Of a stretch of DNA of 51,799 bases, positions 21,539-48,819 are shown piece by piece. Below the pieces are notes generated by a model, which was given only the letters and a program-made list of their open reading frames with translations, was not told where the DNA came from and made no database searches. How positions within the stretch are numbered: the stretch's first letter is position 1; each line of letters opens with the position of its first letter. Origin of the DNA: Chloroflexota bacterium (GTDB lineage Bacteria > Chloroflexota > Anaerolineae > JAAEKA01); NCBI GenBank assembly GCA_034717495.1, contig JAYELL010000014.1, positions 1 to 51,799 of the forward strand, given 5' to 3'. Both the position numbers and the translations under genes were made by a program.

Positions 21539-21595
21539 GTGTACAATAGTGGGCTAAAACAACAACCAGACCCCTGCCTGGACCTATCGGTGACT

Positions 21596-22897: not shown

Positions 22898-22901
22898 GAA
22901 A

Positions 22902-23981: not shown

Positions 23982-24009
23982 GCGAGGAGGCGGCCAGCTT
24001 CCAGAAGAC

Positions 24010-24066
24010 GGTATTCGGTAATCGGTGTTCGGTGATCGGAATACCGATTACTGGTCACGGAATACC
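24010..24066. repeat. Inverted repeat between mvaS and the thiolase
   Basis: GGTATTC and GTAATCGGT at 24010-24026 pair with ACCGATTAC (24043-24051) and GAATACC (24060-24066), forming a long interrupted stem. Short direct repeats of TTCGGT-ATCGG also occur inside. It is of the kind of dispersed palindrome common in these genomes and may set relative expression within the operon. Confidence 0.7.
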
Positions 24067-24097
24067 AGGTTCGGTGGTCAGCGGAGGACTGAACAAA

Positions 24098-25258
24098 ATG
24101 AGATCTGTTTACATAGCTGGCTACGGCCAGACGCCCGTGGGCGAGCAGTGGCAGCGTTCCCTGCGCCACCTGGCGCACGATGCCATTATGCCAGCCATGC
24201 AGGATGCCGGAATCGAACGGGCCGACGCGCTCTACGTTGGCAACATGCTGTCGGGTGAGCTGGTTGGCCAGGAACATCTGGGTGCTCTCGTGGCCGACTT
24301 TGTTGGCCTGAGGGGCATCGAGGCGATCAAGGTGGAAGCTGCCTGTGGTTCAGGCGCAGCCGCGCTGCGTATGGGCTATATCGCCGTCGCCGGTGGCATC
24401 CACGACGTGGTCATTGTCGCCGGCGTCGAAAAGATGACCGACACGGTTAGCAAGGACACCACCGCTGCCCTCGCCATGGCAGCCGACCAGGAATATGAGG
24501 CGGCCGAGGGGGTCTCCTTCGTGGCTCTGAACGCCATGCTCATGCGTCGCTACATGCATGTCTACGACGTGCCCCACAGCGCCTTTGGTTATTTCGCTGT
24601 CAACGCCCATCAGAACGCCGTTGGCAACCCCAATGCCATGTTTCGCCGTGCAATTAGCCTGGACACCTATCTTAAGGCACCCATGATCTGCGAGCCGATC
24701 AACTTGATGGATAGCTCGCCGATCTGTGACGGTGCGGCTGCTGTTGTGCTGATGTCGGAACACCTGGTCCGCTCCATGAACGGCGGCCGGCGCCCTGTGC
24801 GCATTGCCGGTTCCGCGGCCGGCACCGACAGCCTGGCAATCCACGATCGGCGCGATCCTCTCTGGTTGGAGGCAGCCTGGATTAGCAGCCAGAAAGCCTA
24901 TCAACAGGCCGGCATAACGCCTGCCGACGTCGACCTGTTTGAACTCCATGATGCTTTCACCATCATGGCCGCCCTGTCGCTGGAAGCCAGCGGCTTCGCC
25001 GAACGGGGTCAGGGTGTGCGCCTGGCCCAGGAGGGGGAGATCACCATCGAGGGTCGGGTGCCGGTCGCCACCATGGGCGGTCTCAAGGCTCGAGGCCATC
25101 CGGTAGGCGCTACCGGCGTTTATCAGATCGTGGAAGCTGCCCAGCAGGTGCAGGGATTGGCCGGCCCAAACCAGGTGCATGACGTTGATATTGCCCTGGT
25201 CCAGAACATCGGCGGCAGTGGCGCCACCATCGTTTCCCACATTCTGATCGGCGAATAA
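24098..25258 (+). CDS. Acetyl-CoA C-acetyltransferase (archaeal/SCP2-type thiolase)
   Basis: 386 residues from ATG 24098, with GGAGGA twelve bases upstream; the longer in-frame extension to 24032 crosses the palindrome and is rejected. It has MRSVYIAGYGQTPVGE, the nucleophilic Cys83 in VEAACGSGAAALRMGY, ELHDAFTIMAALSLEASGF, and GLKARGHPVGATGVYQ. The C-terminus has NIGGSGATIVSHIL, without the second Cys of classical thiolases, as in SCP2-like and archaeal thiolases. It makes acetoacetyl-CoA from two acetyl-CoA and, by family knowledge, works in a complex with HMG-CoA synthase and a DUF35 protein, both encoded beside it. Confidence 0.92.
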   Translation: MRSVYIAGYGQTPVGEQWQRSLRHLAHDAIMPAMQDAGIERADALYVGNMLSGELVGQEHLGALVADFVGLRGIEAIKVEAACGSGAAALRMGYIAVAGGIHDVVIVAGVEKMTDTVSKDTTAALAMAADQEYEAAEGVSFVALNAMLMRRYMHVYDVPHSAFGYFAVNAHQNAVGNPNAMFRRAISLDTYLKAPMICEPINLMDSSPICDGAAAVVLMSEHLVRSMNGGRRPVRIAGSAAGTDSLAIHDRRDPLWLEAAWISSQKAYQQAGITPADVDLFELHDAFTIMAALSLEASGFAERGQGVRLAQEGEITIEGRVPVATMGGLKARGHPVGATGVYQIVEAAQQVQGLAGPNQVHDVDIALVQNIGGSGATIVSHILIGE

Positions 25259-25273
25259 CTGTGAAAAAAGACT

Positions 25274-25334
25274 GCCAAAACCTACCAAGTGGCCTCAATA
25301 GAGAAAAAAGGCACGTATCCTGATAGGTTTTGGC
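25274..25334 (+). promoter_or_regulatory. 11-bp inverted repeat and shared motif upstream of the DUF35 gene
   Basis: GCCAAAACCTA (25274-25284) and TAGGTTTTGGC (25324-25334) are perfect arms 39 bases apart. The right arm lies in TGATAGGTTTTGG (25321-25333), which also occurs at 21449-21461 before mvaA. An AT-rich stretch with TATGAT/TAAAAT (25343-25353) follows, a possible -10. A regulator common to both genes is an inference. Confidence 0.55.
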
Positions 25335-25425
25335 GAGAAAACTATGATAAAATCGTGTTCGTGTGCGATCAGAGAGTAAATCACCAGGATCGTAGCACGC
25401 ACCAACTTAATAGGAGAGTTTGATA

Positions 25426-25839
25426 ATGACAGTTGCCAGAAGCTGGCGCACCCGTCGCCAACGATATAGTCTAGTCGGTGAGCGCTGTGAGTATTGCCAC
25501 AACGCCATCTTCCCGCCGCGGGATGTCTGCCCCCACTGCGCAGAGCCTGCTCAAAAGGAATTCGCCTTGAGTGGCAAGGGTACCATCTTTTCCTTCACGA
25601 CGGTCTTCGATCCTCCCGCTGGCTTTGAGCGCTACGCGCCCTACCCGGTAGCCCTGGTCCAACTGGATGAGGGACCCATGGTGACCGCTCAGCTAACCGA
25701 TGTTGTACCGGAGGAGATTTCCATTGGAATGCCGGTGGAAATGGTTACCCGCCGGCTGAACGAACAGGGCGACGAGGGCTTGATCCTCTATAGTTATAAG
25801 TTCCGACCGACGCTGGAGCCTCAGGCAGCGATTGTGTAG
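25426..25839 (+). CDS. DUF35 zinc-ribbon/OB-fold protein, partner of the thiolase and HMG-CoA synthase
   Basis: 137 residues from ATG 25426, with AGGAG at 25411-25415. The rubredoxin-like zinc ribbon has Cys21/Cys24 and Cys35/Cys38 (CEYC, CPHC), followed by the OB fold (FALSGKGTIFSFTTV, then YPVALVQLDEGPMVTAQLTD). In archaea, DUF35 proteins form a scaffold that holds thiolase and HMG-CoA synthase together and provides the shared CoA site; the immediate neighbourhood suggests the same role here. It stands 167 bases behind the thiolase with its own possible control region. A strong terminator follows. Confidence 0.9.
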   Translation: MTVARSWRTRRQRYSLVGERCEYCHNAIFPPRDVCPHCAEPAQKEFALSGKGTIFSFTTVFDPPAGFERYAPYPVALVQLDEGPMVTAQLTDVVPEEISIGMPVEMVTRRLNEQGDEGLILYSYKFRPTLEPQAAIV

Positions 25840-26003: not shown

Positions 26004-26381
26004 ATGCCAAGAGGTCGAGGTTTTGGAAAAGGTAAGGGAAGAGGACAAGGCCGGCAGAGGGTGATGAGTTTTTTGCAGCCCTGCCTGTTGTTTCTGCTTA
26101 CCAGGGGAGAAGCACATGGCTATAGCCTGCTTGATGGGCTGGAGGATTTTGGCTTCGACCGCTATCAATTTGATTCCAGCCTGGCTTACCGGGCCTTGCG
26201 CAATATGGAAGATGCAGGCTGGGTCGATTCACGCTGGGATGATGCCAGCCAGGGTCCTCGACGCCGTGTGTATCGAATTTTGCCGGAAGGCAAGATACGC
26301 TTGACAATCTGGATGGACGATCTGCGCCGCACGCGGGACGAGATAGATCGCCTGCTACAGGCCTATGAGCAAGAGAGCTAG
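26004..26381 (+). CDS. PadR-family transcriptional regulator with Gly/Arg-rich N-terminus
   Basis: 125 residues, ATG 26004 after AAGGAG. The first 19 residues (MPRGRGFGKGKGRGQGRQR) are a basic Gly/Arg/Lys tail. Then comes the PadR winged helix: LLFLLTRGEAHGYSLLDGL, FDSSLAYRALRNMEDAGWV and GPRRRVYRILPEGK, ending in a short C-terminal helix (WMDDLRRTRDEIDRLLQAY) for dimerisation. PadR proteins are usually repressors released by a small ligand. The promoter dyad directly upstream suggests self-control, and its position at the head of the cluster suggests it also governs the genes downstream. The Gly/Arg tail echoes the composition of the next protein. Confidence 0.88.
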   Translation: MPRGRGFGKGKGRGQGRQRVMSFLQPCLLFLLTRGEAHGYSLLDGLEDFGFDRYQFDSSLAYRALRNMEDAGWVDSRWDDASQGPRRRVYRILPEGKIRLTIWMDDLRRTRDEIDRLLQAYEQES

Positions 26382-26462
26382 CTAATTGTCAGTGGTCAAT
26401 TGTCAATTGTGGCTCCAAGAGAGATTCAATTCGTTCTTCAATTTACTCACCAGGAGGTAAAA

Positions 26463-26792
26463 ATGCCATTCCGAGATAGAACAGGCCCTGAAGGGAAAGG
26501 CCCAATGAACGGACGAAGGTTGGGCTACTGTGCAGAAACGGATGTCCCGGAGAATATCATACCTGAAGGCCGTGGATTTGGCCGCGGTGGGGGAGCTGGG
26601 CGCGGATTTGGCCGTGGCCGCGGCGGTCGGAGGCGAGGTCGAGGCTTTTTTGCCACCCCCGCAACAACCCTGCCTGAACAAGAAGTCAACATGCTCAAGT
26701 CGCAAGCCCAGAGCTTGAGAGATGCGCTACAACGCGTCAATGACAGGCTCGACACGCTGAAAGCACAGGACGATGGAAAGGATAAGACATGA
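26463..26792 (+). CDS. DUF5320-family protein
   Basis: 109 residues from ATG 26463 with AGGAGGT eight bases upstream. It opens with the family signature MPFRDRTGPEGKGPMNGRRL and GYCAETD, followed by a long Gly/Arg stretch (about 37-62), then a coiled-coil-prone helix (EQEVNMLKSQAQSLRDALQ) to the end. DUF5320 proteins are small and regularly found next to NifX-like and MinD-ferredoxin genes in anaerobes; their biochemical role is not known. The stop overlaps the next ATG by four bases. Confidence 0.88.
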   Translation: MPFRDRTGPEGKGPMNGRRLGYCAETDVPENIIPEGRGFGRGGGAGRGFGRGRGGRRRGRGFFATPATTLPEQEVNMLKSQAQSLRDALQRVNDRLDTLKAQDDGKDKT

Positions 26793-27148
26793 AACTGGCG
26801 ATTTCTTCACTTGATGGAAAAATCGACACTGAACTTAGCTCCCGATTTGCGCGCTGCGATTACTTTATCTTTTTCGACACGGAGACCCGGGATTGGGAAG
26901 CCAGACCCAACCCTGCCGCTGCGGCCCGGGGGGGAGCTGGCGCTCAGGTGGTTCAGTTCCTCTCGAATAGCGGCGTTGAAGCTACAATCAGCGGACGTTA
27001 TGGCCCCACGGCTTTCTCCGCGCTCGATGTGGCCGGCATTCAGGCCTTTGTCGCAGATAGCGGTACGCCGGAAGAGCTGCTCGACAGATTCCTGGCTGGT
27101 CAGCTGGAACAGGTCAACGCTGCTACCGGTCCAGAACTCCATCATTGA
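26789..27148 (+). CDS. NifX/NifB-C-terminal-like (dinitrogenase iron-molybdenum cofactor type) protein 1
   Basis: 119 residues. MKLAISSLDGKIDTELSSRF, then ARCDYFIFFDTETRDWE, GGAGAQVVQFLSNSGVEATI and GRYGPTAFSALDVAGIQAFV form the ribonuclease-H-like fold of the Nitro_FeMo-Co family. In nitrogen fixers such proteins carry FeMo-cofactor or its precursors; in other anaerobes, short stand-alone versions occur with MinD-ferredoxin proteins and probably bind metal or Fe-S clusters. No nif genes are present here. It ends in HH. ATGA overlap with DUF5320 gene; its stop also touches the next reading frame. Confidence 0.9.
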   Translation: MKLAISSLDGKIDTELSSRFARCDYFIFFDTETRDWEARPNPAAAARGGAGAQVVQFLSNSGVEATISGRYGPTAFSALDVAGIQAFVADSGTPEELLDRFLAGQLEQVNAATGPELHH

Positions 27149-27162
27149 GCGTCAGCTCCACA

Positions 27163-28032
27163 ATGATAATTGCAGTTGCCAGCGGGAAAGGTGGCACCGG
27201 TAAAACGACCGTTGCCACCGCTCTCGCTCAAGCCCTTGCCCACGCAGATATTTCTGTATCCTGTTTGGATTGTGATGTCGAAGGGCCGAACGCCCACATC
27301 TTCATTCGGCCCACGCTGGATCACCATAAGAACGTTGATTTACTGATCCCGGAGGTGGATGCCGATCTGTGCAACGGTTGCGGAAAATGCGCGGAAGTCT
27401 GTCAATTTCACGCCATTGTCGTGCTGGGCGGGCAAACGCTCGTTTTCCCGGAATTGTGTCATGGCTGCGGCAGTTGCACCTTGGTGTGCCCTGAAAAGGC
27501 AATCACCGAAGTGCCACGAACGCTGGGCATTTTAGAAGGTGGGCTTTCCCCCGATGGGATCAACTTCGGGCATGGCTTGCTCAACGTGGGCGAACCGATG
27601 GCCGTCCCGGTCATCACGCAGCTAAAATCGTGGCGCGATTACATGGATGCTGAGGTTGTGATATTGGATTCGCCTCCCGGCGCATCCTGCCCGGTGGTTG
27701 AATCTGTTCGCGGGGCAGATTTTGTGCTCCTGGTCACCGAGCCGACCCCTTTTGGACTGCACGACCTGCGTCAGGCGTATGAATTGACACAGGAAGTGGA
27801 TATCCCCGCTGGCCTGATTATCAACCGTGATGGAATCGGCGATCCCGGCGTTGATGTCTACTGCCAGGAAGTTGGGCTGCCCGTTTTGATGAAAATACCG
27901 CTCGAACGGGAAATCGGACAGGGAATAGCTCAAGGAAAAACGCTGCTGGAAATCCATCCGGAATACCAGGATGCCTTTCAGACGTTGTACGCGCAGATTG
28001 CGGATTTGGCTGCAAATGGGGGTGACCGGTGA
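27163..28032 (+). CDS. MinD/ParA-type ATPase with inserted 2x[4Fe-4S] ferredoxin domain, protein 1
   Basis: 289 residues from ATG 27163 (an in-frame TTG at 27145, overlapping the previous stop, would add six residues). Deviant Walker A SGKGGTGKTT at the N-terminus, switch-like DCDVEGPN, then a ferredoxin insert with CNGCGKCAEVC and CHGCGSCTLVCPEKAI, and VILDSPPGASCPVVESVRGA with VTEPTPFGLHDL. This is the class of cytoplasmic P-loop ATPases related to Mrp/NBP35 but with built-in clusters (COG1149). They are thought to deliver or insert Fe-S clusters; no partner is proven. Stop overlaps the next start by four bases (GTGA). Confidence 0.9.
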   Translation: MIIAVASGKGGTGKTTVATALAQALAHADISVSCLDCDVEGPNAHIFIRPTLDHHKNVDLLIPEVDADLCNGCGKCAEVCQFHAIVVLGGQTLVFPELCHGCGSCTLVCPEKAITEVPRTLGILEGGLSPDGINFGHGLLNVGEPMAVPVITQLKSWRDYMDAEVVILDSPPGASCPVVESVRGADFVLLVTEPTPFGLHDLRQAYELTQEVDIPAGLIINRDGIGDPGVDVYCQEVGLPVLMKIPLEREIGQGIAQGKTLLEIHPEYQDAFQTLYAQIADLAANGGDR

Positions 28033-29003
28033 AACAATTGGTCATCCTCAGTGGCAAGGGCGGCACCGGCAAAACCAGCGTCGCTGCCGCCTTTGCGCAC
28101 TTGCTTTCATTGGATGATGCTCCTTTCCGCACGGTTCTGGCCGATGCCGATGTGGACGCCTCCAATTTGGAATTGGTGCTCTCCCCCAAGATCATCACCC
28201 GAGAATCATTCCGGGGCGGCCTGTACGCCAGAATCGACTGGAACACCTGCATTGACTGCGGCATTTGTGAACAGGTTTGTCGTTTTGATGCCATTGGCGA
28301 TACCTCCCGCCCGCAATTTCATCGACTTGCAGCCCGTCGCGTTGCGCAGTCAGATACGCCTTCCTCCCCAATCCCTGAGCTCCCGATAGTCGATCCCATT
28401 GCTTGCGATGGGTGTGCGGCCTGCGTGTACCAGTGCCCGGTGGATGCCATCACCATGCACGATCAGGTTGTCGGGGAATGGTTTCGCTCTGAAAGTCGCT
28501 ATGGGCCATTGTTTCATGCGTCCTTGCGACCGGCTCAGGAGAATTCCGGCAAACTGGTCACGCTGGTCAAGCAGCAGGCGCGTTTGCTGGCCCTGGATGA
28601 GGATTACGATCTGGTGCTTGTCGACGGTCCACCAGGGATCGGCTGTCCGGTCATTTCGGCCGTCTCCGGCGCAGATATGGCGCTCATTGTTGCTGAGCCT
28701 ACCGCGGCAGGCGTGCATGACATGCATCGCGTCCTGGAGACGACCGCTCACTTCGGTGTGCAATCTTTGGTCTGTATCAACAAAGCCGATATTTATCCCA
28801 AAGGGGCTGCCGAAATTGAAGCTTTTTGTCGCGAGCAAGCAGTTCAAGTCGTGGGCAGGATTCCCTTCGACACCACCGTAACAGAAGCGATGGTGCAAGG
28901 GCAACCCGTGACACTTTTTGCTCCAGATGCTCCTTCCAGTCGAGCCTTGCTTGAAGTGTGGGGGCAGGTGACTGCGCTATTGCAAAATGGTGTTTCGCCA
29001 TGA
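28029..29003 (+). CDS. MinD/ParA-type ATPase with ferredoxin insert, protein 2
   Basis: 324 residues, GTG start at 28029 in a GTGA overlap. MKQLVILSGKGGTGKTSVAA gives the P-loop; DADVDASNLELVLSP follows. Ferredoxin knuckles are CIDCGICEQVCRFDAI and CDGCAACVYQCPVDAI, separated by a longer linker than in protein 1. VLVDGPPGIGCPVISAVSGA and VAEPTAAGVHDMHRVLE complete the fold. The two ATPases are paralogues and probably form a heterodimer, as the paired organisation is recurrent in anaerobes. The stop overlaps the next ATG by four bases (ATGA). Confidence 0.9.
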   Translation: MKQLVILSGKGGTGKTSVAAAFAHLLSLDDAPFRTVLADADVDASNLELVLSPKIITRESFRGGLYARIDWNTCIDCGICEQVCRFDAIGDTSRPQFHRLAARRVAQSDTPSSPIPELPIVDPIACDGCAACVYQCPVDAITMHDQVVGEWFRSESRYGPLFHASLRPAQENSGKLVTLVKQQARLLALDEDYDLVLVDGPPGIGCPVISAVSGADMALIVAEPTAAGVHDMHRVLETTAHFGVQSLVCINKADIYPKGAAEIEAFCREQAVQVVGRIPFDTTVTEAMVQGQPVTLFAPDAPSSRALLEVWGQVTALLQNGVSP

Positions 29004-29299
29004 ATGATGAACAAGCTGAAAAACTCAAGAAGTTGATTATCGCCCGTTTGCGTTTGGTCATCGACCCTGAAACCCGCGCGGACGTCGTTCGTATGCGTTT
29101 GATTGAAGACCTTGAAGTGACCGCTGACGGTCAAGTGACCTATACTTTTCGTCCATCATCGCCAGTGTGCCCGATTGCGGTATCACTGGCGCAGCAGATT
29201 AAACAGGCGGTTGCTCAAGTGCCTGGGGTGATGTCCCAGAACATCACCGTTGAAGGCTATGTGGGCGCCGAGCAATTGACAACACTCATCAATCGATAA
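29000..29299 (+). CDS. DUF59/MIP18-family Fe-S assembly-type protein 1
   Basis: 99 residues. VIDPETRADVVRMRLIEDLE, then FRPSSPVCPIAVSLAQQIKQ with the conserved Cys of the family, and VPGVMSQNITVEGYVGAEQL. DUF59 domains (PaaD, SufT, MIP18, N-terminus of Mrp) act in Fe-S cluster maturation. It overlaps the preceding ATPase gene by four bases and fits a functional module with it. A shortened 18-codon copy lies at 45384-45440. Confidence 0.87.
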   Translation: MNDEQAEKLKKLIIARLRLVIDPETRADVVRMRLIEDLEVTADGQVTYTFRPSSPVCPIAVSLAQQIKQAVAQVPGVMSQNITVEGYVGAEQLTTLINR

Positions 29300-29312
29300 G
29301 GAGAAACAACCT

Positions 29313-29684
29313 ATGCGTATCGCAATCTCACTACAAACCAACAATGACCTGAACAGCATCGTCGCTCAGCATTTCGGACGTTGTCCCTATTTCGCACTGG
29401 TGGACATGCAGGGAAACGAGGTCCAGGCAATGGAAGTCATCGACAATCCCTATTATGCTGGTCATCAGGTAGGGGAGATTCCGCGGTTTATCCATGAACA
29501 GAAAGCAGATGTCATGCTTAGTGGCGGGATGGGCGGCCGGGCTATCCAATTCTTCGAACAGTTTGGCATCGGAGTTGCAACCGGCGCCAGCGGTACGGTG
29601 CGTGATACGTTGGAAAGCTACAGCGCCGGTGAACTGCGTGAAGCTGCTCCATGCGCCGAAAGTGTCGCCCACGGCCACGGATAG
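29313..29684 (+). CDS. NifX-like (dinitrogenase cofactor type) protein 2
   Basis: 123 residues, ATG 29313 with AAGGAG 10-15 bases upstream. MRIAISLQTNNDLNSIVAQH, FGRCPYFALVDMQGNEVQAM, EIPRFIHEQKADVMLSGGMG, GRAIQFFEQFGIGVATGASG and TVRDTLESYSAGEL form the Nitro_FeMo-Co fold; the tail CAESVAHGHG is His-rich, a possible metal site. An almost identical second copy with a GTG start lies at 45454-45837. A 76-base gap with no gene follows before the DUF364 gene. Confidence 0.9.
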   Translation: MRIAISLQTNNDLNSIVAQHFGRCPYFALVDMQGNEVQAMEVIDNPYYAGHQVGEIPRFIHEQKADVMLSGGMGGRAIQFFEQFGIGVATGASGTVRDTLESYSAGELREAAPCAESVAHGHG

Positions 29685-29760
29685 GGGCAGTAACCCCACC
29701 CGTTTTACTGTTTTCCCAACTTTCATCGTGCATCCCGACCTTTCTTCATGAATCCATTCC

Positions 29761-30528
29761 ATGTTTAGCCATTTGTTATCCACCCTGCCCGACGGCAAAA
29801 CGATCCAAGTCAACATCGGTTCGCATTGGACGGCAGTCGTCGTCGAAATCGATGGCGCCCAACGCTGCGGCCTGGCATCCTCCCTGTCCAACGTGCACAA
29901 ACGCCACGGCGAGCCAGATGTGCCTCAAGCGGGACAACTGGAGAGATTATCGGGTCTGGAATTGGCTGCACTGGCTCAATCGGAACAACCTGTGCTAGCC
30001 AGCGTTGGCGTAGCGGCGATCAATGCCCTGATTCCACCGCAGCCCGATGCCTGGGTGGACCTGAACGCGGAAGAAGTCATCGCCGAGCATGGAGAAGGCA
30101 AACTGGTCGCCCTCATTGGGCATTTCCCCTTCATTCCCCGCTTGCGCACGCGCGTTGGCGAGTTAGTCGTCCTGGAGCAACACCCACAGCCCGGAGACCT
30201 TCATGCGGACACGGCGTTAGCTGTTATTCCCAAAGCAGAGGTTGTTGCCATCACGGGGACTGCGTTGATCAACCACACGCTAGAAGACCTGTTGGCGCTT
30301 TGTTCGCCTCAGGCGCATGTCATCCTGTTGAGAGCAAGCACTCCTCTCAGTCCAGTTCTTTTCGATTACGAGATCGATCTGCTTTGCGGATCGGTCGTAA
30401 CTGCTATCGAGCCGGTGCTGCGGACAGTGAGACAGGGCGGTATTTTTCCGCAAATCCATCACGCCGGGGTGCGTCTGGTATGTATGAAACACCCCGCTTA
30501 TTTTCACATAGGAGAAAAAAGTGTCTGA
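29761..30528 (+). CDS. DUF4213/DUF364 (putative heavy-metal chelation) protein
   Basis: 255 residues. The N-terminal DUF4213 half has IQVNIGSHWTAVVVEIDGAQ and GLASSLSN; the C-terminal DUF364 half has KLVALIGHFPFIPRLRTRVG, VVLEQHPQPGDLHADTALAV, VAITGTALINHTLEDLLAL, and HVILLRASTPLSPVLFDYEI. Structural genomics work on this family proposed a heavy-metal-chelating role, and members often sit beside molybdenum or other metal genes. Here it could handle a metal for the molybdo-enzyme. The GTG of the next gene lies inside its last codons (8-base overlap). Confidence 0.88.
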   Translation: MFSHLLSTLPDGKTIQVNIGSHWTAVVVEIDGAQRCGLASSLSNVHKRHGEPDVPQAGQLERLSGLELAALAQSEQPVLASVGVAAINALIPPQPDAWVDLNAEEVIAEHGEGKLVALIGHFPFIPRLRTRVGELVVLEQHPQPGDLHADTALAVIPKAEVVAITGTALINHTLEDLLALCSPQAHVILLRASTPLSPVLFDYEIDLLCGSVVTAIEPVLRTVRQGGIFPQIHHAGVRLVCMKHPAYFHIGEKSV

Positions 30529-30832
30529 TATTAACACGAACCAAAAAGTTATAGAGGCTATTGAGCGTGTCGAGCACCCCTCCATTGCTACAACTTTGCT
30601 GGATTTGGGGATGTTGCGTGATATTGAAGTATCGTCAGATAAAAAAGTAGCGTTGACGATGGTCTTACCATTCCCCAGCATCCCCGACAACGTGCGTGAC
30701 TATATGGTGAATAGCCTGGCTACCGCGATCCAATCCAGCGGTGGAGAATTAGTAACCGTGAATCTGGCTGTGATGAACGAAGAAGAGCGCCAGAACTTTT
30801 TGACAATAGAACAGCAAAATTGGAGAGGCTAA
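30521..30832 (+). CDS. DUF59/MIP18-like protein 2, lacking the usual cysteine
   Basis: 103 residues, GTG at 30521 with AGGAG ten bases upstream. VIEAIERVEHPSIATTLLDL and GMLRDIEVSSDKKVALTMVL match the DUF59 fold, but where the family has T-x-PgCP it reads LPFPSIPDNVRD, with no Cys anywhere in the chain. It may have lost cluster-related chemistry and serve as a binding module. The N-terminal 75 codons are duplicated at 35533. It starts eight bases inside the DUF364 gene and is followed three bases later by the RecA/KaiC-like gene. Confidence 0.8.
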   Translation: MSDINTNQKVIEAIERVEHPSIATTLLDLGMLRDIEVSSDKKVALTMVLPFPSIPDNVRDYMVNSLATAIQSSGGELVTVNLAVMNEEERQNFLTIEQQNWRG

Positions 30833-30835
30833 ACG

Positions 30836-31591
30836 ATGGATAAATTCTACACAAATCATGACTGGTTCGATCATCTTTTTCCGGAAGGGTTTCCTATCCC
30901 CAGTTCAACATTGTTAAGCGGCCCCGGTGGTTCCGGCAAACCCTTGATCGGCAACGTGATCGTGGCAGACTGGCTGCGGCAGGGCGGTAGTGTCGTTTTT
31001 ATGTCTTTGCAATATCCCGATCACAGTTTCATTGTGTCGGGGTTGCAGAACGTTTCCGGGCTTAACCTGGACGATTACGCCGACCAGACAGCTTTCATCG
31101 AGTTGGATGCAACTCTGGAAGCTATGTCTGCCCCAATAGGCAATCACTTTAGCGCCAATATGGTTAAACCCCAGGTGTGGGATGCGGCCATCGAACAAGC
31201 CTGTAAAATGGTGCCGGACGAGGGGCCTGGGATTCTGATATTCAGTTCCGCCTTAAATTTACTCTTATTCTCTCCCACTTATGGTAGAGGCATCCTAGAA
31301 AAAATAAAGGCAACCGCTCAGGAAACGGGAAAGTGCACCTATCTATTTTCAGCAAGCACCACTGCAAAAGCAGAAGAGATCGCTGAACTGGAAGCCGTCG
31401 TTGACAACCTGATCATGACACATAGCACCAAAGCGCCTTTCCGGCTTTACATGCGTATCGAGCGCATCAAAGATGCACCTTTCGAGCCTGAAGAAATCCT
31501 GGTGCCCATTTCTCCCGAAGTCTTGACAGATATGAAATCAGTCGCTGATTACAGTCGTAAGCGGGTCATCCCATTGGTCTCTCAACTCTAG
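30836..31591 (+). CDS. RecA/KaiC-like ATPase-fold protein with degenerate nucleotide motifs
   Basis: 251 residues. The fold pattern is that of a single KaiC/RadA core: DWFDHLFPEGFPIPSSTLLS, then a P-loop GPGGSGKP (29-36), VIVADWLRQGGSVVFMSLQY, ILIFSSALNLLLF and VVDNLIMTHSTKAPFRLYMR. Residue 36, normally Ser or Thr for magnesium, is Pro (codon CCC at 30941-30943), and the Walker B strand ends in Phe-Ser rather than Asp. It may bind nucleotide weakly or not hydrolyse it. The role in the cluster is unknown. It lies four bases behind the second DUF59 gene. Confidence 0.7.
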   Translation: MDKFYTNHDWFDHLFPEGFPIPSSTLLSGPGGSGKPLIGNVIVADWLRQGGSVVFMSLQYPDHSFIVSGLQNVSGLNLDDYADQTAFIELDATLEAMSAPIGNHFSANMVKPQVWDAAIEQACKMVPDEGPGILIFSSALNLLLFSPTYGRGILEKIKATAQETGKCTYLFSASTTAKAEEIAELEAVVDNLIMTHSTKAPFRLYMRIERIKDAPFEPEEILVPISPEVLTDMKSVADYSRKRVIPLVSQL

Positions 31592-31604
31592 CCTGCATCG
31601 GTAA

Positions 31605-31647
31605 GGCATTTTCGGAAAAATAAATAAGCCTCCAATCCGAAAATGCC
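31605..31647. repeat. Inverted repeat 1 with TTTTCGGA arms
   Basis: Perfect 12-bp arms GGCATTTTCGGA (31605-31616) and TCCGAAAATGCC (31636-31647). It lies 14 bases behind the KaiC-like stop. There is no T-run after it, so it is not a standard terminator. Confidence 0.85.
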
Positions 31648-31653
31648 TCTAGC

Positions 31654-31700
31654 GACTTCCGAAAAATGATAAAATTTCCCTCAACTATTTTTCGGAAGTC
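31654..31700. repeat. Inverted repeat 2 with TTCCGAAAA arms
   Basis: Perfect 13-bp arms GACTTCCGAAAAA (31654-31666) and TTTTTCGGAAGTC (31688-31700), AT-rich loop with GATAAAAT, a possible -10. The core TTTTCGGA is shared with repeat 1, giving four copies in 100 bases directly ahead of the YggS-type gene. This looks like a binding region for a regulator, or two mobile palindromes. Confidence 0.85.
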
Positions 31701-31734
31701 GACTAATAGCGGTCCAAGCTCAAGGGTAATAAAG

Positions 31735-32403
31735 ATGAACTCACAAACGGACGAGATATTCAAATCAGTAAAACAAATCCTCGCAACGATTCCCCCAGGA
31801 GTTATCCTGGTAGCGGCGGCAAAAACACGGACACTGGAGGAGGTGGAAGCTGCTATCGAGGCAGGTGTAACCCATATCGGTTACAATTATATTCAAGAAG
31901 CGCTACCCATCATCCAGGCGGTAGGCGGACGGGTGACATGGCATATGATCGGCCATCTGCAGCGCAACAAAGCAAAAATGGCCGTGCAACACTTCGACAT
32001 GATCGAAACCGTTGACTCGTGGCGGCTCGCCCAGGCTTTAGATCGCCGCTGCGCGGATATTGGGAAAACCATGCCTGTGCTGGTCGAAATCAACAGCGGG
32101 AGAGAATCAAACAAAACGGGCGTGCTACCAAATGACGTAGACGAACTCGTGCAGCAAATCAGCACGCTCGAACATCTCCACGTGGAGGGCCTGATGACCA
32201 TGGGGCCACGCTTCGGCGAGCCAGAGGACAGCAGGCCCTATTTTCAGGCCACGCGGGAGGCTTTTGATCGTCTCTCCTCTAAAAATATCCCCCATGTCAC
32301 CATGCAATATCTTTCCATGGGCATGAGCAATAGTTATCAAATTGCCATCGAAGAAGGCGCAAACATCGTCAGAATTGGCACGAAACTTTTCGGTGAACGC
32401 TGA
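31735..32403 (+). CDS. YggS/PROSC-type PLP-binding protein
   Basis: 222 residues from ATG 31735, with AAGGG upstream. ILVAAAKTRTLEEVEAAIEA contains the PLP-binding Lys30; GVTHIGYNYIQEALPIIQ, WHMIGHLQRNKAK, VLVEINSGRESNKTGV, GLMTMGPRFGEPEDSRPYF and MSMGMSNSYQIAIEEGANIV-like blocks follow (the last read as YLSMGMSNSYQIAIEEGANI). The usual N-terminal E-N motif GENY/GENRVQE reads GYNYIQE. Family members keep PLP and amino-acid pools in balance. Its place between Fe-S/metal genes and a molybdo-enzyme is unusual; AT-richer than the window's average by eye. Confidence 0.9.
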   Translation: MNSQTDEIFKSVKQILATIPPGVILVAAAKTRTLEEVEAAIEAGVTHIGYNYIQEALPIIQAVGGRVTWHMIGHLQRNKAKMAVQHFDMIETVDSWRLAQALDRRCADIGKTMPVLVEINSGRESNKTGVLPNDVDELVQQISTLEHLHVEGLMTMGPRFGEPEDSRPYFQATREAFDRLSSKNIPHVTMQYLSMGMSNSYQIAIEEGANIVRIGTKLFGER

Positions 32404-32424
32404 TCTGAGGAGGATGAACACCTT

Positions 32425-35337
32425 ATGAAAACAACTACTACAAAAATCACCCTGAGCATTAACAACACAGTCCGTACGCTTTCCGTGGGAAAAAGTGAAA
32501 GCCTTCTGGATGCACTTCGCAATGCCTCCTATTTCAGCGTCAAATCTGGCTGTGACGATGGCACTTGCGGGGTTTGCACAGTCCTGTTGAATGGGAAACC
32601 AGCGCTCAGTTGCAAAACGAAAGCGGTTGATGTCGATGGCGCTAAGATCACAACCCTTGAAGGGCTGAGCCAGAACGGTGAACTGCATCCCATCCAAACC
32701 GCCTTCATGGAAACCGGCGCTATTCAATGTGGTTTTTGCACGCCGGCACAAATTCTCTCTGCCAAATCCTTGCTGGATAAGAACTTAAACCCCAGCGATG
32801 GCGAAATCCGCAAAGCCTTGAACCCCGTCCTTTGTCGCTGCACAGGCTATGTGCGCGGTGTGGATGCGGTGCATCGCGCGGCTGCGGTCATGCGTGGGGA
32901 GAAGGTTGAACCGTATATCCATATTGACCACGCCCTGCCCGCTGACACGAGACAAATCGAACTTCCAGAAGAATTTTACCGCCGCGATGGGGGGCGTAAT
33001 CCCCTACCACCGCTGATTTTCACCCCAGAGGCGATGGGCAAGACGAAGGTCGTCGGCAAGTCCGAAGTTAAAGTGGATGCTAAAAAACTGGCGCAGGGAC
33101 GTCCGGTCTTTACCGATGATTTTCGGCTGGATGGGATGTTCTACGGGGCGCTGCTCACCAGTCCCCATGCCCATGCCCGTATTCGGGGCATCGATGCCAG
33201 CCGGGCGCGCGCCCTCCCAGGTGTCCACGCCGTCCTGACTCACGAGGACATCCCGCGTGTCAAGTACGCATCGGGCGGACAGAGCTATCCCCAGCCGTTG
33301 CCTTACGATCAGGTCAGTCTGGACGATAAAGTCCGTCACGTCGGTGACCGCGTCGCCATTGTGGCTGCCGAGACGCTCGATATTGCCAATCAGGCGCTGG
33401 ATATGATCGATGTGGACTATGAAGTTTTGCCGGTCGTCGTGGACATGGAAGCCGCCATGCAGGAGGGCGCGCCAATTATCCACGATGAGCCAGATACCGA
33501 AGGTGTTTATGATAGAGAGCGCAATGTCGCTGTCCACATTGATGCCCAGGTCGGCAATGTGGAGAAAGCCTTTATCGAGGCCGACCACGTTTTTGAGGGC
33601 GAATACCGCACCCCCATGCAACAGCAGGCGCACCTGGAACCGCATGTCACGATCACCTACATGGACGAGGACGACCGCCTGGTGATCCGCACCAGCACGC
33701 AGGTTCCCTTCCATATCCGCCGCATGGTCGCCCCACTGATTGGTTTGCCCGTGAAAAAGATCCGTGTGGTCAAACCGCGCATCGGCGGGGGCTTTGGCAA
33801 CAAACAAGAACTGCTCCTGGAAGATTTATGTGCCCATCTTAGTTTAGCGACCGGCCGCCCGGTGCGTATGGAGTATACCCGCACGCAGGAGTTCACCAGC
33901 TCGCGCCGGCGTCACGCCAACATCGTCCGCTACAAGGTCGGGGTCAAAGATGAAGTTATCACCGCAGCCGACCTCTATTTGCTCGGAGATACCGGGGCTT
34001 ACGGCGCGCACGCCCTGACAGTCAACATGGTCGGCGGTTTCAAGGGGCTGACGCTCTACAACCCGCCGAACGCCCAATTCATCAGCGATGTCGTTTACAC
34101 CAACACGATCCCGGCGGGCGCATTCCGCGGCTACGGCGCGATGCAATGTCAGTATGGGATCGAAGTTTTGATGGCTGAAATTGCCGACAGCCTCGGCCTG
34201 GAGGTGGTCGAATTCAAGCGCAAGAACTGGCTCAAAATCGGCGAACCGATGCACCTATCCAAAAAATTGGGCGAGGGGCGCGAGGGGGTCGAGCAGGCCC
34301 TGCAAACCAGCGCCCTGGAACAATGCGTGGACATCGGCCTGGAAGCCACCGATTTCTATTCCAAACGTAAACAATATCGCGGACAAAACGGACGCTATCG
34401 GCGGGGGATTGGCATGGCGGTGGTCATGCACGGCAGCGGGATCGCCGACCTGGACATGGCCGCGGCGACGCTGAAAATGAACGACGACGGCTCTTTCAAC
34501 TTGCTGATAGGCGCAACCGACCTGGGCACCGGCTCGGACACCATTCTGGGGCAAATGGCGGCGGAGGTCCTGGGCATCCCCTTGGAGGATGTGATTGTCT
34601 ACTCCTCGGATACCGATTTCACGCCTTTTGATGTCGGGGCGTATGCCAGCAGCACCACCTACATCAGCGGCGGCGCGGTGCGCAAAGCGGCGTTGCAGGT
34701 CAAAGAACAAATTCTGGAACATGCCGCGCTGATGCTCGAACTCACCGATACAGCCGGGCTAAAACTCGAAAATCGGCAAGTGATCGCCCCGGATGGACGC
34801 TCGGTCACGCTGGAAGAAGTTGGCTTGAGCAGTCTGCACCAGCAAAACCAGCATCAGATTGTGGCGACCACCTCGCATACCAGCCCACTCAGCCCACCGC
34901 CGACCGCCGCCCAGTTCGCAGAAATCGTTGTAGACATCGAAACAGGCAAGATTGACACCGAGCGGCTGTTGATGGTGGTGGATTGCGGGCGGGTGATCAA
35001 CCCGCTCACCGCCGCTGGACAGGTGGAGGGCGGGATATCACAGGCTTTAGGCTTCACTCTGACTGAAGAAATGCTCTTCGATCAGGACGGGCAGCCCCTC
35101 AACGCCAGCTTTGGCAAATACCATATCCCTCGCGCCGCCAAAATGCCTGCAACGGACGTGATTTTTGTTCAGACCGATGAACCGAGCGGACCTTTTGGCG
35201 CTAAATCAGTTGCCGAAATTTCAATTGATGCAGTAGCTCCAGCCATCGCCAGCGCAATCCATGATGCCACGGGTGTGTGGATGCGAGAACTGCCATACAC
35301 CCCCGAACGCGTCCAATCTGGCTTGAAAAGCAAATGA
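32425..35337 (+). CDS. Single-chain molybdenum hydroxylase (xanthine dehydrogenase/aldehyde oxidoreductase family)
   Basis: 970 residues, ATG 32425, GGAGGATG upstream. The N-terminus holds two [2Fe-2S] domains: plant-type Cys43, Cys48, Cys51, Cys63, and the helical one Cys102, Cys105, Cys137, Cys139. After a linker (150-210) comes the molybdopterin-binding large subunit, with RIGGGFGNKQE, IPAGAFRGYGAMQ, GATDLGTGSDTILGQMAAEV and GPFGAKSVAEISIDAVAP, where Glu931 is the active-site glutamate. The FAD domain is absent, so electrons go to a ferredoxin or other carrier, as in Desulfovibrio Mop, which has the same fused layout and about 907 residues. The substrate (aldehyde, purine or other heterocycle) is not readable. 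The upstream Fe-S and metal genes would suit its maturation. Confidence 0.9.
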   Translation: MKTTTTKITLSINNTVRTLSVGKSESLLDALRNASYFSVKSGCDDGTCGVCTVLLNGKPALSCKTKAVDVDGAKITTLEGLSQNGELHPIQTAFMETGAIQCGFCTPAQILSAKSLLDKNLNPSDGEIRKALNPVLCRCTGYVRGVDAVHRAAAVMRGEKVEPYIHIDHALPADTRQIELPEEFYRRDGGRNPLPPLIFTPEAMGKTKVVGKSEVKVDAKKLAQGRPVFTDDFRLDGMFYGALLTSPHAHARIRGIDASRARALPGVHAVLTHEDIPRVKYASGGQSYPQPLPYDQVSLDDKVRHVGDRVAIVAAETLDIANQALDMIDVDYEVLPVVVDMEAAMQEGAPIIHDEPDTEGVYDRERNVAVHIDAQVGNVEKAFIEADHVFEGEYRTPMQQQAHLEPHVTITYMDEDDRLVIRTSTQVPFHIRRMVAPLIGLPVKKIRVVKPRIGGGFGNKQELLLEDLCAHLSLATGRPVRMEYTRTQEFTSSRRRHANIVRYKVGVKDEVITAADLYLLGDTGAYGAHALTVNMVGGFKGLTLYNPPNAQFISDVVYTNTIPAGAFRGYGAMQCQYGIEVLMAEIADSLGLEVVEFKRKNWLKIGEPMHLSKKLGEGREGVEQALQTSALEQCVDIGLEATDFYSKRKQYRGQNGRYRRGIGMAVVMHGSGIADLDMAAATLKMNDDGSFNLLIGATDLGTGSDTILGQMAAEVLGIPLEDVIVYSSDTDFTPFDVGAYASSTTYISGGAVRKAALQVKEQILEHAALMLELTDTAGLKLENRQVIAPDGRSVTLEEVGLSSLHQQNQHQIVATTSHTSPLSPPPTAAQFAEIVVDIETGKIDTERLLMVVDCGRVINPLTAAGQVEGGISQALGFTLTEEMLFDQDGQPLNASFGKYHIPRAAKMPATDVIFVQTDEPSGPFGAKSVAEISIDAVAPAIASAIHDATGVWMRELPYTPERVQSGLKSK

Positions 35338-35519: not shown

Positions 35520-35953
35520 ATAGGAGAAAAAAGTGTCTGATATCAACACGAACCAAAGAGTTATGGAGGCTCTTGAGAGCGTCGAGCACCCCGCCATTGC
35601 TACAACTTTGCTGGATTTGGGGATGCTGCGTGATATTGAAGTATCTTCAGATGATGGAGTAGCGTTAACGATGGTCTTACCATTCCCCAGCATCCCCGAC
35701 AACGTGCGTGACCATATGGTGAATAGCCTGGCTGCCGCGATTCAATCCAGCGGTGGAAGGTTAATAACCGCGATTACAGTCGTAAGCGGGTCATCCCACT
35801 GGTCTCGCAACTCTAGCCTGCAACGAACGTGATTTTTGTCCAGACCGACGAGCCGAGCGTGAACCCGACCGCCGCCGAAAAAATGGACTGCAAACCTGGC
35901 ACCATGCCCGATGGCGCTACCATCGTTAATGTGATCTTGGGAGGTCACTGATA
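35520..35953 (+). pseudogene. Collapsed duplicate 1 of the upstream operon (DUF59-2 / KaiC-like / molybdo-enzyme pieces)
   Basis: Three segments follow each other in parental order. 35520-35755 resembles 30508-30743 (ribosome site, GTG and first ~75 codons of DUF59-2). 35772-35822 matches 31547-31597 (the last codons of the KaiC-like gene and its stop region). 35817-35859 matches 35145-35187 (near the end of the molybdo-enzyme gene, MPATDVIFVQTDEPS). Then comes a tail (VNPTAAEKMDCKPGTMPDG) ending in TGA at 35951. The junctions fall at short shared words such as GATTACAG and GCCTGCA. A 99-residue ORF (35533-35832) results but is a chimera out of frame after the first junction. The segment's end supplies the ribosome site of the next gene. 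Confidence 0.88.
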
Positions 35954-45146: not shown

Positions 45147-45383
45147 ACGGTGGCATCCGCCAACGCAGTAGACTGACGCCGGATAAAGACTGATTTCAGC
45201 ATTGTGAGCGTATGAGCAGTAAGAACGCCCTTTACCTGAACGATAATGCAAATATCGGCATGGTCCATTTTCGCTCCATTCCATCTTGAAAAATTCGCGG
45301 AGAGGCTTCCTTCTACAAGCTGGTGATGCGTGAATGAGGGCCGTTTCAGCGAACGTCTCGATTAAACTGGAAGATAGCGAACC

Positions 45384-45440
45384 ATGAGTGATGAGCAAGC
45401 AGAAAAACTGAAGCAATTGACAACACTCATCAATCGATAA
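45384..45440 (+). pseudogene. 18-codon in-frame remnant of the DUF59-1 gene
   Basis: ATG 45384 to TAA 45440 reads MSDEQAEKLKQLTTLINR, which is the first ten codons of the gene at 29000 joined to its last eight. About 243 bases of the middle are missing, with the frame preserved. It lies 13 bases before the NifX-like copy, as in the parent. The stretch 45147-45383 before it has no gene I can support. Confidence 0.88.
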
Positions 45441-45453
45441 GGAGAAACAACCT

Positions 45454-45837
45454 GTGCGTATCGCAATCTCACTACAAACCAACAATGACCTGAACAGCAT
45501 CGTCGCTCAGCATTTCGGACGTTGTCCCTATTTCGCACTGGTGGACATGCAGGGAAACGAGGTCCAGGCAATAGAAGTCATCGACAATCCCTATTATGCT
45601 GGTCATCAGGTAGGGGAGATTCCACGGTTTATCCATGAACAGAAAGCAGATGTCATGCTTAGTGGCGGGATGGGCGGCCGGGCTATCCAATTCTTCGAAC
45701 AGCTTGGCATCGGAGTTGCAACCGGCGCCAGCGGTACGGTGCGTGATACGTTGGCAAGCTACAACGCCGGTGAACTGCGTGAGGCTGCTCCATGCGCCGA
45801 GAGTGTTGCGCATGGCCACGGGCATGAGCAGGATTAG
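45454..45837 (+). CDS. NifX-like protein, near-identical copy of the gene at 29313
   Basis: 127 residues with GTG start, AAGGAG at the same spacing as the parent. I count roughly a dozen base differences over 360; changes include Met44 to Ile, Phe89 to Leu and Glu102 to Ala. The tail differs, HGHGHEQD instead of HGHG, adding one more His. The fold and all motifs are intact, so it may be expressed, but its operon partners are gone: only the DUF59 remnant lies before it and a molybdo-enzyme fragment behind it. Confidence 0.9.
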   Translation: MRIAISLQTNNDLNSIVAQHFGRCPYFALVDMQGNEVQAIEVIDNPYYAGHQVGEIPRFIHEQKADVMLSGGMGGRAIQFFEQLGIGVATGASGTVRDTLASYNAGELREAAPCAESVAHGHGHEQD

Positions 45838-45852
45838 AAGGATCTTAGCCCG

Positions 45853-46002
45853 AGCCTGGCGAAAGATCCCATCCCCCGCGCCGTCAAAATGCCTGCAACC
45901 GATGTTATCTTCGTCCAGACCGACGAGCCGAGCGTGGACCCGACCGCCGCCGAAAAAATGGACCACAAACCTGGCACCATGCCCGATGGCGCTATCATCG
46001 TC
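45853..46002 (+). pseudogene. Collapsed duplicate 2: molybdo-enzyme 3' fragment with foreign tail
   Basis: 45853-45934 matches about 35106-35187 near the end of the molybdo-enzyme (IPRAVKMPATDVIFVQTDEP). It then diverges from it into VDPTAAEKMDHKPGTMPDGA (45935-46001), the same tail as in duplicate 1 (35860-35926) and different from the intact gene, which continues GPFGAKS. No start codon or ribosome site of its own is evident. It meets the phosphotransferase gene end-to-end 67 bases later. Confidence 0.85.
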
Positions 46003-46068
46003 TGGGCATCAACCGCCGGCCCGATGTCAAACCCTCAGTCAGTCGGGGAGCACCACCAATTTTACAAC

Positions 46069-48819
46069 CTACCTGCGTTTTTCCCACAACACAACCAAAC
46101 CAACAACTAACCCGACAGCCAACGCAGCCAGAGCGAATTTCCGTGCGGGAGAATTTGTTTCCTCCACTTTTGTTATCGCTTCTGTGTCGACTTCATCCAG
46201 CAGCGTTACCGTGCCGGCATCGCCATCAACCAGAATGCGCTGACCATTTTCGATACGCTGGGTTGCCATACCTGTACCCATCACCGCTGGGATCCCGTAC
46301 TCTCGCGCCACGATGGAACCGTGGGCCAATGCGCCTCCAATGTCGGTGACCAGCCCCTTCGCCCGGGCAAAGAGAGGCGTCCAGGCCGGGGTGGTGGTCG
46401 TGCAGACGAGGATCGTGTCCGGGACCATCCTGTCGAAGTCTTGCGGGGACCGGATAACGCTGGCCGGTGCAGTGACCCGGCCGGGACTGACAGCGAAGCC
46501 ATCCAACGTGGGGCCTGCGCTGATGGTGCGGGATTTAGGCTCGAACATGGCCATGTCGATCGGCCCGAACTTCATCCGGCCATCCGGCGGAACCACCACC
46601 GGTGGATCGAGGCGCTTGCGCGCTTCGCGCAGAATGCGTCGCTCCCGGGCCTGGCTGGCCAGGTCTGGTCGACCGACACCATCCGCGCGTGCATTGATGG
46701 CCTCCTCCAGTTCTGCGCTCTTCAGATAGAAGACATCGACCGGCGCATCGAGGGAGCCGGCTTCCGTGAGCCGTCTGCCCAGTTCGAGGGCCAGCCGTCG
46801 CAGAGCAGGCCAGGCCGCGCCCACATAGAAGAGCGCCTCTTCCCGGTAGGGCGAGTAATGCTGCGCCCAGCCCAATAAGCGCCTGAAAATCGGGCGCTGG
46901 GTGGGATTCAATGAGCGTTCCGTGCGCGCGACCAGCGCCTCTCTCTCCCGCGCCAGCTCGGCCTGGCGAGCGAGCGCATCCCGCTCCGGGTAGGCGACGG
47001 CCGCCTGCAAGCTCAACAGAACAGGGAGGGGATCATCCGCCAGGGTAGGTGCAACGAAGTCCAGGTTGTAGACCTGGTGGCCATACGCATCAAGATATTG
47101 CTGCAGGTTGTCCAGCACCGCCTGCCCGTCCGCATGCTCCGCCAGCATATCGAGCAAGCGTGGAGCTGGCGTATTCAACACCTGTTTCCGCAATGTCTCA
47201 GAGGCCTGGATCTTTCTGGCGATGGCTTCCAGCCGGGCCTGCGCCTCCACCGCCTTGGATGGGAAGCCGCGCAGAAAAGAGCCGCTGGTCAGGCAGGCGC
47301 CGTTTGACCGGCCGCGCCCAACCGATTTCAGAAAGCGGTTGAGCGCGGCATCCGTGACTCGCGCCAATCCCAGGGGTACAGCCGCCGCAAACCAGTAGAT
47401 AGCATCCTCTGCGGCAAGTTCACGCACACCCTGCAACAGAGTCTCGTCGGACGCATTGGGCAAGTCGATGCTCTTCCAATGCTCGATGGCAGCCCGATAG
47501 TCAGGCAATGACTCGTCTCGCCAACGGGGAACCAGGTGGCGGATCATCTTCGGCAAGACGACCGTATAGATGCGCAAGACAAGCGGAACAATCTTCAAGC
47601 TGAAGTCAAAGCTGGCGATGCTGTATGCGTAGCCATTGACTGTGGCGGCAAAGGGCGGTTCGACGAAGTCCCACACGTTGATCTCGAAGCCGCTCAGGTC
47701 GGTCAAAGAAACGCCAATTTCATCCATCGATTTATCCAGGCCGTTTTGCAGATAAAGCTCGTCGAAAAGCGGGGAGAGGGGTTCCGGCATGTGCTCGACG
47801 ACTTGTCGTCGCATCCAGATAGTGCCGGGCCTGGGCGGATCCCAACGCACATCTCGCAACGGCACCGGTGGCAAATTGGTGATGGGGCGCGCTTGCAGAA
47901 TGGCGATTTTGCCGCCGAATATCGCCCATTCAATGTCCATCGGCAAACCATAATGCGCCTCGATCTGTGCGCCATACCGTGCCAGCTCGATGGCCGTGGC
48001 GTCGTCCAGGACCCGTTGATCTTGTTGTGATTGGGGTGTGGATCGCTCCTCTGTGCCATTGTCAATCAGCACCGTCATCACCGTTTTGGTGGTTGTCTCG
48101 CGGGATATTATCTGCCAGGTCGATTTATCCACGACCACGGTGTCGGGTGTCACTAGCCCACCGACAATCGCCTCACCCAGGCCCCAGGTGGCGTTGATAA
48201 CGATCTGGTCGCGCTCGCCATCAATCGGGTTGGCTGTAAACAGAACGCCGGCGGACTCGGCCGGAATGAATTGTTGCACAACTACTGCGAGGCTCACAGT
48301 GGCGGGGTCAATGTCCTGACGCATCCGGTAGGAGAGGGCGCGGGCCGTCCACAAACTGGCCCAGCATTTTTTCACCGCATCCAATAATGCGCGCCCCCCT
48401 CGAATGTTGAGATAAGTGTCCTGCTGACCGGCGAAACTCGCTGTGGGCAAATCCTCGGCGGTGGCGGAAGAGCGCACGGCAACCGGGATCGCCCCTTCCA
48501 TGGTCAAATCCGCATACGCCTCCAATAAATCGATCTGGATGGCCTCCGGCATGTCGCCAGCGAGAAAGCGCTCTTTGATAGCTGCGGAGGCCTCTTCAGC
48601 CGACTGCGGATCGTCGGCCGCAACCGCAGAGGCCAGCTCGGTGATCTGATGCTGTAACCCATTTTCGTTCACAAATGCACCATACGCTTCCGTCGTCAGG
48701 ACGAATCCGGCGGGAACGGGAAAACCGGCTGCGGTCAACTCTCCGAGATTGGCGCCCTTGCCCCCCGCGAGCGGGATGTCGTTTTTGCCAAGTTGCGTGA
48801 AAGGAGTGGTGTAAGTCAT
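46069..48819 (-). CDS. PEP synthase/rifampicin-phosphotransferase-like protein with C-terminal membrane helix
   Basis: 916 residues. The N-terminal ATP-grasp domain has GGKGANLGELTAAGFPVPAG (19-38), AVRSSATAEDLPTASFAGQQ and VVVQQFIPAESAGVLFTANP. A long helical middle follows (330-760). The swivelling phosphohistidine domain has TDIGGALAHGSIVAREYGIP, catalytic His at 833, and VDGDAGTVTLLDEV. The PEP/pyruvate TIM barrel of true PEP synthase is absent, which matches rifampicin phosphotransferase and related enzymes (about 870 residues). The last ~25 residues, FALAALAVGLVVGLVVLW then EKRR, form a membrane helix with a basic stop-transfer, not usual for the family. It would hold the enzyme at the inner face of the membrane. 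Substrate unknown. Confidence 0.87.
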   Translation of the reverse strand: MTYTTPFTQLGKNDIPLAGGKGANLGELTAAGFPVPAGFVLTTEAYGAFVNENGLQHQITELASAVAADDPQSAEEASAAIKERFLAGDMPEAIQIDLLEAYADLTMEGAIPVAVRSSATAEDLPTASFAGQQDTYLNIRGGRALLDAVKKCWASLWTARALSYRMRQDIDPATVSLAVVVQQFIPAESAGVLFTANPIDGERDQIVINATWGLGEAIVGGLVTPDTVVVDKSTWQIISRETTTKTVMTVLIDNGTEERSTPQSQQDQRVLDDATAIELARYGAQIEAHYGLPMDIEWAIFGGKIAILQARPITNLPPVPLRDVRWDPPRPGTIWMRRQVVEHMPEPLSPLFDELYLQNGLDKSMDEIGVSLTDLSGFEINVWDFVEPPFAATVNGYAYSIASFDFSLKIVPLVLRIYTVVLPKMIRHLVPRWRDESLPDYRAAIEHWKSIDLPNASDETLLQGVRELAAEDAIYWFAAAVPLGLARVTDAALNRFLKSVGRGRSNGACLTSGSFLRGFPSKAVEAQARLEAIARKIQASETLRKQVLNTPAPRLLDMLAEHADGQAVLDNLQQYLDAYGHQVYNLDFVAPTLADDPLPVLLSLQAAVAYPERDALARQAELAREREALVARTERSLNPTQRPIFRRLLGWAQHYSPYREEALFYVGAAWPALRRLALELGRRLTEAGSLDAPVDVFYLKSAELEEAINARADGVGRPDLASQARERRILREARKRLDPPVVVPPDGRMKFGPIDMAMFEPKSRTISAGPTLDGFAVSPGRVTAPASVIRSPQDFDRMVPDTILVCTTTTPAWTPLFARAKGLVTDIGGALAHGSIVAREYGIPAVMGTGMATQRIENGQRILVDGDAGTVTLLDEVDTEAITKVEETNSPARKFALAALAVGLVVGLVVLWEKRR

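Follow-up and report, generated by a model that had tools for sequence, protein, structure and literature searches.

Gene conversion between duplicated bacterial loci, together with the formation of pseudogenes through deletion at short homologies, leaves mosaic identity, an abrupt change-point and truncated pieces in parental order. All three traits are seen in remnant B, a short locus of a Chloroflexota bacterium, which differs from such cases in being one of two remnants that each hold one complete small domain and share an end sequence with no traced source. The small protein encoded by remnant B covers the full domain of the Nitro_FeMo-Co family (PF02579), whose NifX/NafY/VnfX C-terminal-like members include MTH1175, TM1816, PH0822 and ORP, and it matches the structurally solved members 1t3v, 1o13, 2yx6 and 1eo1; it departs from the family in its His-containing C-terminus, which is altered by a fusion. 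Unlike nitrogenase NifX proper, the gene has no nif genes beside it, the neighbours being Mrp-type Fer4-ATPases, DUF59, DUF364 and a Mo hydroxylase. This hydroxylase, a 970-residue enzyme of the parent cluster in which the Fe-S and Mo hydroxylase parts are fused, resembles the molybdo-hydroxylases TIGR03313 (Se_sel_red_Mo) and XdhA (NF043082) with 695 and 685 bits respectively, but lies under their curated cut-offs (1101.9 and 780), so that no substrate is assigned to it. A literature search for this gene combination returned nothing.

The parent cluster and its two remnants

The stretch of DNA analysed here, referred to as the window, comprises 51,799 nucleotides (contig C14:1-51799) of a 5.0 Mb genome in 120 contigs with an estimated 96% completeness and 3.4% contamination. 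Comparison of the window with itself reveals two remnants, A and B, on the same strand as the parent cluster P:

26004-35337, + strand: parent cluster P, with PadR, a small Gly-rich ORF, NifX1, two Fer4-ParA/Mrp ATPases, DUF59-1, NifX2, DUF364, DUF59-2, a KaiC-like gene, a YggS-like gene and the molybdo-hydroxylase (Mo) gene
29313-29684, + strand: parent NifX-like gene (NifX2), 123 aa
35520-35926, + strand: remnant A, with a DUF59-2 ORF (35533-35832), the last 54 bp of the KaiC-like gene region, a Mo fragment and a 67-bp tail
45382-45440, + strand: DUF59-1 (PF01883) remnant at the start of remnant B (45382-46001), its first ~11 codons joined in frame to its last ~8
45412-45754, + strand: parent-type tract, putatively acquired by gene conversion, with 4 differences over 343 bp to P 29271-29613
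45454-45837, + strand: NifX-like ORF (PF02579), 127 aa, open, with a GTG start and GGAG 9 nt upstream
45826-45934, + strand: internal molybdo-hydroxylase fragment, parent 35080-35188, with a stop codon at 45835
45935-46001, + strand: 67-bp tail, absent from the parent cluster and common to remnant A (35860-35926) with 4 differences

On its upstream side the parent cluster adjoins an archaeal-style mevalonate entry cluster in this bacterium (21539-25839), where HMG-CoA reductase, an archaeal-type HMG-CoA synthase (TIGR00748, 529 bits), thiolase and a ChsH2/DUF35-type OB protein are encoded consecutively.

The pieces of remnant B are collinear with P and yield BLAST E-values from 1e-4 to effectively 0, hence their homology is not due to chance. 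The start of DUF59-1 (28998-29036) is matched by 45382-45420 at 33 of 39 positions, the NifX region (29271-29680) by 45412-45821 at 399 of 410 (97.3%) and a stretch of the Mo gene (35125-35188) by 45871-45934 at 54 of 64, with weaker Mo homology beginning at 45826 (72% over 109 bp; blastx over 25 codons, E 2e-5). From 45412 onwards remnant B is of parent type, running through the final DUF59-1 codons and the intergenic sequence into the NifX gene. The initial annotation had described a collapsed operon copy that retains the parental order, one intact NifX-like gene and an 18-codon in-frame remnant of DUF59-1, and this outline is borne out: the DUF59-1 remnant reads MSDEQAEKLKQLTTLINR* from an ATG at 45384 to a TAA at 45440, and the 127-aa ORF is open and scores 73.2 bits against PF02579. 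Its count of about a dozen base differences also agrees with the 11 found within 29313-29680 and a few more around the parent stop codon.

Other parts of that description require correction. The NifX-like gene is full in the sense of a complete ORF, but it starts with GTG in place of the parental ATG and has a different C-terminus. Its final residues, EQD*, align with the Mo-gene residues DQDG, which indicates that the end of NifX is fused to the Mo fragment; the two lie in one frame, parted by a single TAG (45835-45837). What had been taken for the 3' piece of the Mo gene is internal, corresponding to about codons 886-921 of 970 and lacking the last ~49 codons, and the final 67 bp of the remnant do not occur in the parent. 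The distance of 10 kb holds for remnant A, whereas the parent NifX gene is 16.1 kb away. The neighbours of remnant B are unique, with a GH4 gene upstream and a PEP synthase gene on the other side, the latter containing a near-perfect palindrome of 39 bp (47311-47349; 87% self-complementary). A search of the adjoining 45147-45381 upstream and 46002-46110 downstream returned no more remnant pieces, and no known RNA families were found in the window.

A full second operon, which the initial annotation had proposed to look for, was not found in the assembly. In a genome-wide search the DNA of remnant B matches this contig only, the KaiC-like gene is single-copy, the NifX2-type gene occurs solely in P and B, and a Mo-hydroxylase paralogue on contig C71 shares only 60% identity. 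The relatives compared all lie outside the genus, since none from within it is listed; the nearest relatives of the cluster are Anaerolineae/Anaerolineales MAGs that carry its parts in fluid order, for example DUF59-2-KaiC with a Mo gene further on (L069). Another such locus (L088, G213:C102, 11749-14310) encodes a Mo hydroxylase, NifX (81%) and DUF59-2 (67%) in an order unlike that of the window, and its NifX ends in HGHGHDHEH.

Uneven divergence within remnant B

Synonymous divergence between P and remnant B amounts to 0.73 in DUF59-1, 0.61 in Mo and 0.37 in NifX codons 101-123, compared with 0.015 in NifX codons 2-100; the pieces outside the putative conversion tract comprise only 12-23 codons, so these values are rough, but the contrast is large. 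A mismatch change-point at about 29613 was reached in none of 20000 permutations (Fisher test on synonymous changes, P = 2e-4), and the near-identity gives way abruptly to background divergence as expected of gene conversion. The Mo fragment has accumulated 9 synonymous changes and 1 nonsynonymous change over 21 codons (P = 1.6e-5 against neutrality) and NifX codons 101-123 show a ratio of 6:2 (P = 0.003), whereas codons 2-100, with 1 synonymous and 2 nonsynonymous changes, are uninformative (P = 0.54). As the divergence of the DUF59-1, Mo and NifX-3' pieces is mostly synonymous, the second copy diverged while its genes were still working, and at a dS of ~0.4-0.7 outside the tract remnant B is not a recent copy. 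The near-identity of NifX codons 1-100 amid such old pieces points to recent gene conversion.

The initial annotation had offered recent origin or selection as the explanation for the preserved gene and frame. Near-identity is confined to NifX codons 1-100 and, as the probable product of homogenisation, is evidence of neither, and that the 18 codons have stayed in frame is expected in one of three cases by chance alone. Had the parent simply undergone a recent segmental duplication and then deletion, this would be in keeping with the parental order and the 97% overall identity across the NifX gene. Such a history is nevertheless very unlikely, because 15-28% of the bases in DUF59-1 and Mo are unlike those of P, in Mo mostly at synonymous positions, and such uneven divergence contradicts a single recent event; the tail is moreover absent from the parent, and the outgroup-like DUF59-2 residues of remnant A make the parent a sister.

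The annotation had also named an assembly duplicate of strain variants as the finding that would overturn its reading. The joining of such variants of the parent cluster into one contig draws some plausibility from the fragmentation and estimated contamination of the genome. Even so, an artefact is very unlikely: remnant B sits between unique genes, the longest exact run shared with P is 118 bp, and diverged sequence flanks the near-identical tract on both sides, which would require two chimeric joins within 343 bp. The 67-bp tail is missing from the parent, and remnant A is the only other place in the genome that has it.

Judged from the sequence, remnant B is probably what survives of an older sister operon, Q, that collapsed and whose NifX region was recently homogenised with the parent over ~343 bp. 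The Q copy split from the parent at an early date, when its genes were still coding, and would then have shrunk through deletions at short homologies. The junctions do lie at short, imperfect homologies, namely AGMARTTGA in DUF59-1, GCCTGCA between KaiC and Mo in remnant A and GANCAGGA between NifX and Mo. About 343 bp of the Q NifX region would then have been overwritten with parent sequence, or have overwritten the parent, through recent gene conversion or template switching. On its left the parent-type tract starts right at the junction of the DUF59-1 deletion (to 29271), and since 42 identical bases at this junction are unlikely at ~15% background divergence, the tract is taken to extend up to it. 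A single template switch from Q to the parent and back could yield both tract and deletion, and conversion followed by deletion would fit equally well. The outcome would be a locus of mosaic make-up that still has one complete NifX-like ORF, translatable into 127 aa, and in which the truncated or disrupted DUF59-1 and Mo pieces are pseudogene remnants and the NifX ORF itself is intact.

Remnant A and the shared 3' end

Remnant A is parent-like in DUF59-2 (dS 0.13) and KaiC; its Mo fragment changes from parent-like in the first half to B-like in the second, and the tail is B-like as well. At the eight Mo sites that differ between P and B it reads P-P-P-P-P-B-B-B, a pattern with a chance of about 0.04, which is no more than suggestive of a second mosaic. 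Several DUF59-2 residues (ALES, RDH) are shared by remnant A with the outgroup G213 against the parent, and the parent is thus the sister rather than the source. The ORF at 35533-35832 holds a complete PF01883 domain that scores 38.7 bits, against 33.9 for the intact DUF59-2 of the parent.

The 3' stretch common to both remnants, Mo sequence included, is 91% identical over 111 bp. Each remnant consists of one small ORF followed by this stretch, an arrangement that could bring to mind mobile-element cassettes with the shared end as a recombination site, but such an origin is hardly credible given that 44 bp of the stretch are Mo coding sequence and that the genome contains no further copy. An integron-like attC site at the 3' end was considered and rejected, as the sequence folds no better than its shuffles on either strand (z -0.9 to 0.7). 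Searches for the 67-bp tail gave no copy in the genome beyond A and B, no convincing relative among 199 genomes of the class (weak matches, E 0.01 and above), no Pfam match over cut-off and no occurrence in the clusters of the relatives compared. When the flank of remnant A was traced via its PHP gene, the best match in the same 199 genomes was 49%, at a locus (L092) with ABC-transporter genes upstream and no source of the tail.

The reading frame of remnant B and its significance

Residues 14-104 of the remnant B ORF align with positions 2-93 of the 94 in the PF02579 profile, passing the gathering score (cut-off 26.3; E 2e-20) and scoring slightly above the parent gene at 71.8 bits. The ORF might have been kept by selection as a stand-alone working paralogue while the rest decayed, just as remnant A keeps its DUF59 domain. 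This would be compatible with a history of conversion, and the intact ORF and ribosome-binding site, the family score and the synonymous lean over codons 2-123 (7:4, P = 0.0045), obtained from the count that the initial annotation had called for, speak in its favour. Selection is nonetheless rather unlikely, for the synonymous excess is contributed by codons 101-123 and could be older than the collapse, the start is weakened to GTG and the C-terminus is replaced by an out-of-place Mo fragment. A simple, weak scan of the upstream + strand gave no sigma-70-like promoter. A bolder version, according to which both collapses stopped at one complete carrier domain (DUF59 in A, NifX in B) and these persist as selected spare parts renewed by recombination with the parent after loss of the enzymes, is decidedly doubtful.

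The NifX protein of G213 (81%) has I40 and L84 as in B and E101 as in P, which implies no less change in the parent gene than in remnant B since the conversion. Compared in this way the copy in remnant B shows no visible sign of faster decay than P since the exchange, and the 3-4 changes involved are too few to separate selection from recency. Read-through transcription of the upstream GH4 gene is one possible route to expression; more likely this is a redundant gene in the course of being lost that is still readable through recent refreshing. A search of viral contigs for a relative of the NifX protein gave none.

The sister-operon history is of an ordinary kind, genome decay and patching with a tidy molecular record, and opens no long-standing question. 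If expressed, the ORF would provide a second copy of a small Fe-S/metal-cofactor carrier, which would serve with the Mrp-type ATPases and the Mo enzyme of the parent cluster. Remnant B is a small, readable case of the collapse of an operon copy in an uncultured bacterium, and illustrates how the age of a duplicate can be misjudged from the identity of small paralogous genes, as a near-identical gene may reside in an old remnant, refreshed by recombination.
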